From Candidatus Poribacteria bacterium (GTDB lineage: Bacteria > Poribacteria > WGA-4E > WGA-3G): 64,000 bases of DNA. A model generated the notes under the pieces. That model searched no databases. It saw only the letters and a program-made list of their open reading frames with translations, and had not been told where the DNA came from. The translations under genes and the position numbers were made by a program. Numbering within the stretch: the first letter of the stretch is position 1; each line of letters starts with the position of its first letter. Where the stretch lies: assembly GCA_028821605.1 (NCBI GenBank), contig JAPPFM010000059.1, positions 310,001 to 374,000 of the forward strand, given 5' to 3'. Below, in pieces: positions 29,951 through 30,881 of the stretch.

Positions 29951-30283
29951 ATGCCAACTGAAACGGAACTTTACGATGCCGCGCTCACGCATTTTGCTGA
30001 AAACGATCTCGAAGCGGCTGTTAATGCCTTTAAAGAACTGATTGACACCTACCCAGACTACATCGAAGGATTCCTTGGGTTAGGACATGCTTATGAACGG
30101 ATGAGTCTATACGATGAAGCCATTGAGGCTATCCAGAAGGCGATAGAAATCAACCCAAAGGATCCGCTTGTATATACCAGTTTATCCATGTGTTACCAAA
30201 GAAAAGGGATGATCCAAGAAGCAGAGGATGCGATGGCAAAGTCGCAGCAGTTGCAGATAGAGGCATCCGGTTCATCTACATAA
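29951..30283 (+). CDS. Small TPR protein
   Basis: This 110-residue protein consists almost entirely of three tetratricopeptide repeats (units starting near residues 4, 38 and 72). It has no signal peptide. AAGGA lies 9 nt before the ATG. It lies upstream of the selenoprotein gene on the same strand with a palindromic repeat between them. The role is presumably protein binding. Confidence 0.82.
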   Translation: MPTETELYDAALTHFAENDLEAAVNAFKELIDTYPDYIEGFLGLGHAYERMSLYDEAIEAIQKAIEINPKDPLVYTSLSMCYQRKGMIQEAEDAMAKSQQLQIEASGSST

Positions 30284-30344: not shown

Positions 30345-30881
30345 ATGCCAAATACTACGTTACTCGATCCCACCTCTCAAGGCAATGTGTCCGCAAAATT
30401 TCTCGCACCGCGACTCGACAGCCTTGACGGAAAAGTGATGGGTTTACTGAATATCACAAAGAATGGCAGTGATATTTTTCTGGATCGCATTGCGGAATTG
30501 ATGCAGGAACGGTTCGACCTTGCCGAAGTGGTTCACGTCAAAAAACCGACGTTCTCGCGTCCCGCGCCGACAGAGCTGCTTGTTGAACTCGCGGAAGAAG
30601 CAGACTTTGTCATTGAAGGGCTTGCCGACTGAGGCTCCTGCATATCGTGCAGTATGCACGACGGAAGTGCTTTAGAGGAACGCGGTGTGCCAAGCGTCGC
30701 GGTTTGTACGGAAGTCTTCTTCGCTGCGGGGAAAGTCCAAGCACGTGTCTTGGGACACAGCGATTTGGAACCGCTCACTGTCCCGCATCCGATCCAGAGT
30801 CTGACACCGGAGCAGATTCAGGAGCGCGCGGAAGGTGCCGTTGAAGAAATCGTCGCACGGTTGACAAAAAACGGCGAATAG
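30345..30881 (+). CDS. UGSC family selenoprotein (in-frame UGA = selenocysteine at codon 96)
   Basis: The frame runs through one TGA at 30630-30632 and stops at 30881, giving 178 residues. Around the TGA the sequence reads A-D-U-G-S-C-I-S-C-S-M-H-D, the defining UGSC motif of a bacterial (seleno)protein family whose Cys homologues read CGSC. A SECIS-like hairpin begins 12 nt after the UGA. The coding pattern continues normally downstream (EERGVPSVAVCTEVFF, then LGHSDLEPLTVPHP). The family is thought to be thiol/selenol redox-active, but its reaction is not established. Without recoding the gene would appear as two fragments. GAGG precedes the ATG. Confidence 0.85.
30630..30661 (+). promoter_or_regulatory. 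Bacterial SECIS element downstream of UGA
   Basis: TCGTGC (30645-30650) and GCACGA (30656-30661) form a perfect 6-bp stem capped by AGTAT, with G at the second loop position. The loop begins 18 nt after the UGA, within the spacing known for SelB-dependent recoding in bacteria. Confidence 0.75.

Follow-up and report, generated by a model that had tools for sequence, protein, structure and literature searches.

A UGSC-family gene with an in-frame TGA codon

The 64,000-nucleotide stretch analyzed here (the window; positions 310,001 to 374,000 of contig JAPPFM010000059.1 from the Candidatus Poribacteria bacterium assembly GCA_028821605.1) carries on its plus strand a gene of the UGSC selenoprotein family (30345..30881), which starts with the ATG at 30345, contains an in-frame TGA at 30630-30632 and ends with the TAG at 30879-30881. 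Read through the TGA, its 178 codons specify a product of 178 amino acids with selenocysteine (Sec) at residue 96, in the context EGLAD-U-GSCISCSMHDG, and the [U/C]-G-S-C motif of the family is present as U96-G97-S98-C99. The read-through product matches both the Pfam family UGSC (PF24696; E = 3.6e-51, 174.1 bits against a cut-off of 25, residues 6-174) and the NCBIfam family NF041046, 'UGSC family (seleno)protein' (158.4 bits, cut-off 125), and among its relatives the protein sequence is conserved after the TGA as it is before it. Under the standard code the same frame yields two open reading frames (ORFs) of 95 and 75 amino acids. A preliminary description of this DNA had proposed a UGSC selenoprotein with the TGA in an A-D-U-G-S-C-I-S-C context and had predicted that standard annotation would halve the gene; the two family matches, the read-through translation and the ORF list bear this out.

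The hairpin downstream of the TGA

Downstream of the TGA, on the same strand at 30645..30661, lies a hairpin with the stem TCGTGC/GCACGA and the apical sequence AGTAT, which holds a GU in the loop. The stem has six Watson-Crick pairs, to which closure of the loop to GUA would add an A-U pair as the seventh, and is separated from the TGA by 12 nt, the five-nucleotide loop by 18 nt. RNA folding gave a free energy of -8.8 kcal/mol (z = -2.4) for this small structure. Among the 2379 TGA triplets on both strands of the window, 36 are accompanied by an equally good hairpin and 24 are flanked on both sides by 60 open codons, and the TGA of the UGSC gene is the sole triplet that combines a suitably spaced hairpin with 60 open codons on either side. 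An Rfam scan of the whole window at gathering thresholds returned no family match.

The relatives of the gene provided the means to ask how this segment evolves. A UGSC gene is present in 63 of the 85 genomes sampled from the phylum, and in the 60 full-length genes the codons under the hairpin hardly vary (TCG, 59/60; TGC, 59/60; AGT, 60/60; CAC, 60/60). The synonymous entropy of these nearly invariant codons, +5 (Ser), +6 (Cys), +7 (Ser) and +9 (His), is 0-0.12 bit, compared with a mean of 1.29 bit, and no value below 0.1, for 64 other degenerate codons of the same genes at which the amino acid is equally conserved. The GU of the loop is invariant among 59 distinct poribacterial sequences. 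Across 22 divergent Sec forms of UGSC, paralogues included, 96.2% of the stem cells are paired and eight cells have changed on both sides, a level of pairing reached in none of 500 shuffles (0/500) and approached by no slid register. The compensatory changes fall at two stem pairs (C-G to G-C or U-A, and U-A to A-U or G-U), and the loop U is lost in one of the 22 forms (GGGCT, L203). The hairpin that the preliminary description had reported, perfect over six pairs with the loop AGTAT and at the proper distance, is thus present, folds, and is conserved with compensatory changes. This evidence supports the view that it behaves as a bacterial selenocysteine insertion sequence (SECIS) and is conserved as an RNA structure.

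Selenocysteine decoding

The genome to which the window belongs (6.0 Mb, 98% complete) has a single tRNA-Sec, which scores 78 bits, over the Rfam cut-off, and to which ARAGORN assigns the anticodon tca. A SelB gene over its curated cut-off lies about 290 bp from this tRNA gene, on the same contig and strand, and both SelA (600 bits) and SelD (359 bits) also exceed their curated cut-offs. The selA, selB, selC and selD genes that had been predicted elsewhere in the genome were therefore all found, and the absence of SelB or tRNA-Sec, which had been named as evidence to the contrary, does not apply to this genome.

TGA occupies the UGSC site in every poribacterial match that spans it, including 60/60 full-length genes, and in 80/80 loci kept from a wider bacterial scan, 27 of which come from other phyla (Rokubacteria, Binatia, Acidobacteria, Gemmatimonadota, Latescibacterota and Pseudomonadota) in which a genome carries from one to eight TGA-containing UGSC paralogues. 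Were the TGA a real stop, the two ORFs produced by the standard code would be overlapping fragments, the product of a pseudogene or of a sequencing error. This reading has next to no chance of being correct, since it is already contradicted by a TGA shared by all spanning poribacterial relatives and by whole sets of paralogues elsewhere, by the conservation of the protein beyond that codon and by a full tRNA-Sec/SelABD set.

The cysteine forms of the family are equally informative. Among 399 sampled Pseudomonadota genomes, UGSC occurs in six: TGA stands at the site in the three whose SelB exceeds the cut-off (G085, G229 and G401), and TGC, which encodes cysteine (Cys), in the three that have no such SelB (G465, G233 and G367). 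In these three Cys genes the stems are broken and GU is missing from the loop position. Relatives with a sense codon and no SECIS had been named beforehand as evidence against a selenoprotein; the poribacterial relatives that span the site all have TGA, and the sense-codon relatives in our sample are confined to genomes without SelB over the cut-off, where the hairpin is broken. Cysteine only where SelB is missing, together with a broken hairpin there, is what a true Sec site would be expected to show. A genome-wide reassignment of TGA, for example to Trp or Gly, would also account for a frame that stays open across the codon, which fits any reading, but it is extremely improbable given the Cys in relatives without SelB and the presence of a dedicated tRNA-Sec and SelB, and it would make the SECIS hairpin needless. 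The division of the Pseudomonadota genes into TGA and TGC according to SelB rules out a stop, a sequencing error and a general reassignment alike. The gene in the window is therefore almost certainly a UGSC-family selenoprotein gene in which SelB carrying Sec-tRNA(Sec), directed by the SECIS hairpin that begins 12 nt further on, decodes the UGA at 30630-30632 as Sec.

Three further observations concern TGA codons. The Asp codon preceding the TGA (30627-30629 in the window, and its equivalents) is GAC in all 60 poribacterial genes, though GAT is synonymous, and the 5' context may affect decoding. The SelD gene of the same genome itself has an in-frame TGA, in the context VKCAG-U-ASKLAP (L015, minus strand; G000 contig 30, 71300-72223), as does a gene for a PrdB-like selenoprotein (FLTPV-U-PMCNQSVGL; L185:1228-1971, minus strand; G000 contig 49). 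Genes similar to the latter occur in 67 of the 85 poribacterial genomes, and their PF07355 match reaches only about as far as the Sec codon, since that is where both the open frames and the match to the profile end. With the UGSC gene included, the machinery thus serves at least three genes.

The partner protein family

A divergent poribacterial copy of UGSC in genome G005 (L078) is fused, the one such case found, into a protein of 562 amino acids in which the UGSC domain is followed by some 350 amino acids with no Pfam or NCBIfam match. Relatives of this second part adjoin UGSC in 26 of the 27 non-poribacterial loci (the exception is L148), as well as in L077 and L189, and form a family of proteins of 313-480 amino acids that likewise have no Pfam or NCBIfam match. 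The Rokubacteria genome G086 encodes seven UGSC and eight partner proteins and the Binatia genome G087 eight of each (L199-L211), and all 15 UGSC paralogues of these two genomes have a partner gene on the same strand no more than 300 bp away, either before or after them. A partner match also lies beside or near UGSC in each of the six Pseudomonadota genomes, whether their UGSC has Sec or Cys. In the window genome the partner gene is unlinked and encodes 313 amino acids (G000 contig 18, 27517-28455; L186:3518-4459); the genes downstream of it, judged by eye, resemble CBS-domain proteins and a 2-oxoacid:ferredoxin oxidoreductase-like pair.

Across the 85 poribacterial genomes the two families are both present in 61 and both absent from 20, with two discordant genomes in each direction. 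At least four joint losses look separate (genera g4, g7, g9 and g11). The joint absences include genera whose close relatives have both (g4, g9 and g11) as well as genomes that keep SelB, so the joint absence is not a by-product of losing Sec. Among the partner proteins Cys 80, Cys 178, His 103 and His 252 are invariant, and some have an N-terminal thioredoxin-like stretch carrying CxxC. Searches of Pfam, NCBIfam and PDB sequences gave weak thioredoxin matches to this N-terminal extension only, and a structural model (predicted local distance difference test, pLDDT, 79.9) compared with the PDB matched class I fumarate hydratases (E = 3e-5), but at a template modelling (TM) score of about 0.3 and a root mean square deviation of 16 Å. 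An hhalign comparison of UGSC with the partner family revealed no relation between the two.

A probable two-subunit enzyme

The pairing of the two families in loci and among paralogues, their fusion, and their joint presence and absence lead us to infer that UGSC and its partner form one functional unit, the simplest form of which would be a two-subunit enzyme. UGSC is probably the selenium subunit of a two-component enzyme with one partner copy for each UGSC copy. It also seems likely that Rokubacteria and Binatia have expanded this system to seven or eight pairs in each genome, and that in Poribacteria its two parts lie apart on the chromosome yet are inherited and lost together. In such an enzyme the partner would be the other subunit, the Se-S pair of UGSC would either attack a bound substrate or reduce it, and this pair would then be re-reduced by thioredoxin-type thiols; the thioredoxin-like CxxC N-terminus of some partners suggests a route by which electrons could be delivered.

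Several points weigh against this interpretation. In Poribacteria, where UGSC is common in the order, it is mostly unlinked from its partner; the co-occurrence of the two across the phylum (Fisher p = 4e-15) is given by a test that ignores shared ancestry; the sequence and structure searches with the partner (Pfam, NCBIfam and PDB) yielded nothing firm; and the genes that neighbour the pair vary. The Sec decoding that underlies it is, moreover, established from sequence evidence and not from the protein. Around the paralogous pairs of Rokubacteria and Binatia the neighbours include amidohydrolases, tripartite ATP-independent periplasmic (TRAP) transporters, a luciferase-like monooxygenase and a coenzyme A (CoA)-transferase; they are not constant, and no general conserved neighbour other than the partner was found beside UGSC in other phyla. 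These genes point to the catabolism of imported organic compounds, and we offer a catabolic role only tentatively.

At the locus in the window, a small ORF for a TPR-repeat protein (29951..30283, plus strand, with Pfam TPR matches) lies directly upstream of the UGSC gene, at a distance of 61 bp. A similar ORF is present in 43 poribacterial loci, and this neighbour was not found in the UGSC loci of other phyla.

Predicted fold and comparison with known selenoproteins

In the AlphaFold model of the UGSC product (pLDDT 89.9) five strands alternate with helices; Sec sits at the beginning of the helix that follows strand 3, with an invariant Cys three residues beyond it (UxxC). Foldseek matched the model to flavodoxin-like or Rossmannoid structures (TM about 0.4-0.5), with no thioredoxin among the matches listed, and the UGSC profile matched no PDB sequence. 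The fold is thus predicted to be flavodoxin-like and not thioredoxin-like, which speaks against the 'likely Trx-like fold' assigned to UGSC in 2008 (PMC2398784). The suggestion made at that time would have UGSC act as a stand-alone thiol oxidoreductase of thioredoxin fold, a genuine selenoprotein whose neighbouring protein is incidental. The UxxC motif, which UGSC shares with many redox selenoproteins, agrees with this, but the position of Sec after strand 3 in a model without a listed thioredoxin match, and a partner that accompanies 15/15 paralogues and is lost with UGSC, make it improbable. Compared with the UxxC selenoproteins that do have a thioredoxin fold (Trx-like, Prx-like), UGSC has the motif in common and differs in its predicted fold.

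Another parallel may be sought in GrdB and PrdB (PF07355), of glycine and D-proline reductase, which also have UxxC with Sec and of which UGSC might be a reduced relative, retaining the catalytic Sec domain and performing a similar reductive cleavage with its partner subunit. Residues 82-153 of UGSC weakly match the NCBIfam model for glycine reductase selenoprotein B (E = 0.0076), an hhalign comparison with the poribacterial PrdB-like proteins weakly aligns UxxC on UxxC, Sec on Sec (E = 0.036), and both would be two-component Sec enzymes. The hhalign probability is however 1.4%, TIGR01917 scores 15 bits against a cut-off of 602, the Pfam scan gave no PF07355 match to the UGSC product, which is below the cut-offs for membership and does not have the rest of the GrdB protein, and the partner does not match known reductase subunits. 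We consider such a distant kinship unlikely, though appreciably less so than a stand-alone thioredoxin-type enzyme.

The UGSC family itself was described from ocean metagenomes of the Global Ocean Sampling (GOS) data, with 255 Sec and 21 Cys sequences (Zhang and Gladyshev, 2008; PMC2398784), which places it among the more abundant selenoprotein families of aquatic metagenomes. UGSC-motif selenoproteins are also mentioned for Geodermatophilaceae, with a tRNA-Sec anticodon CUA (2017; PMC5330540), and a 2026 review counts UGSC among the families whose functions are largely uncharacterised (PMC13188914). A consistent partner offers a concrete handle on that function. The accounts of UGSC checked for the name do not mention Poribacteria, and a literature search for Poribacteria and selenocysteine turned up only sponge metagenome work. 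As far as the literature searched shows, the operon pairing, the paralogue pairing and the co-loss of UGSC and its apparent partner are new. The preliminary description refers neither to the earlier publication of the family nor to the partner. In the GOS data a domain called 'Unknown_1', which could belong to the partner family, is fused to UGSC (PMC2398784, Figure S1A), and the G005 copy likewise fuses UGSC to a large unknown domain. The family having been published since 2008, the gene in the window is a new member of a known family: it shares with the 'UGSC-containing protein' of PMC2398784 (NF041046/PF24696) the full-length match, the UGSC motif, the interchange of Sec and Cys and a bacterial SECIS. 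It is no different in kind from the published family, to which it adds Poribacteria and a clear new example of the type of gene that standard annotation breaks in two.
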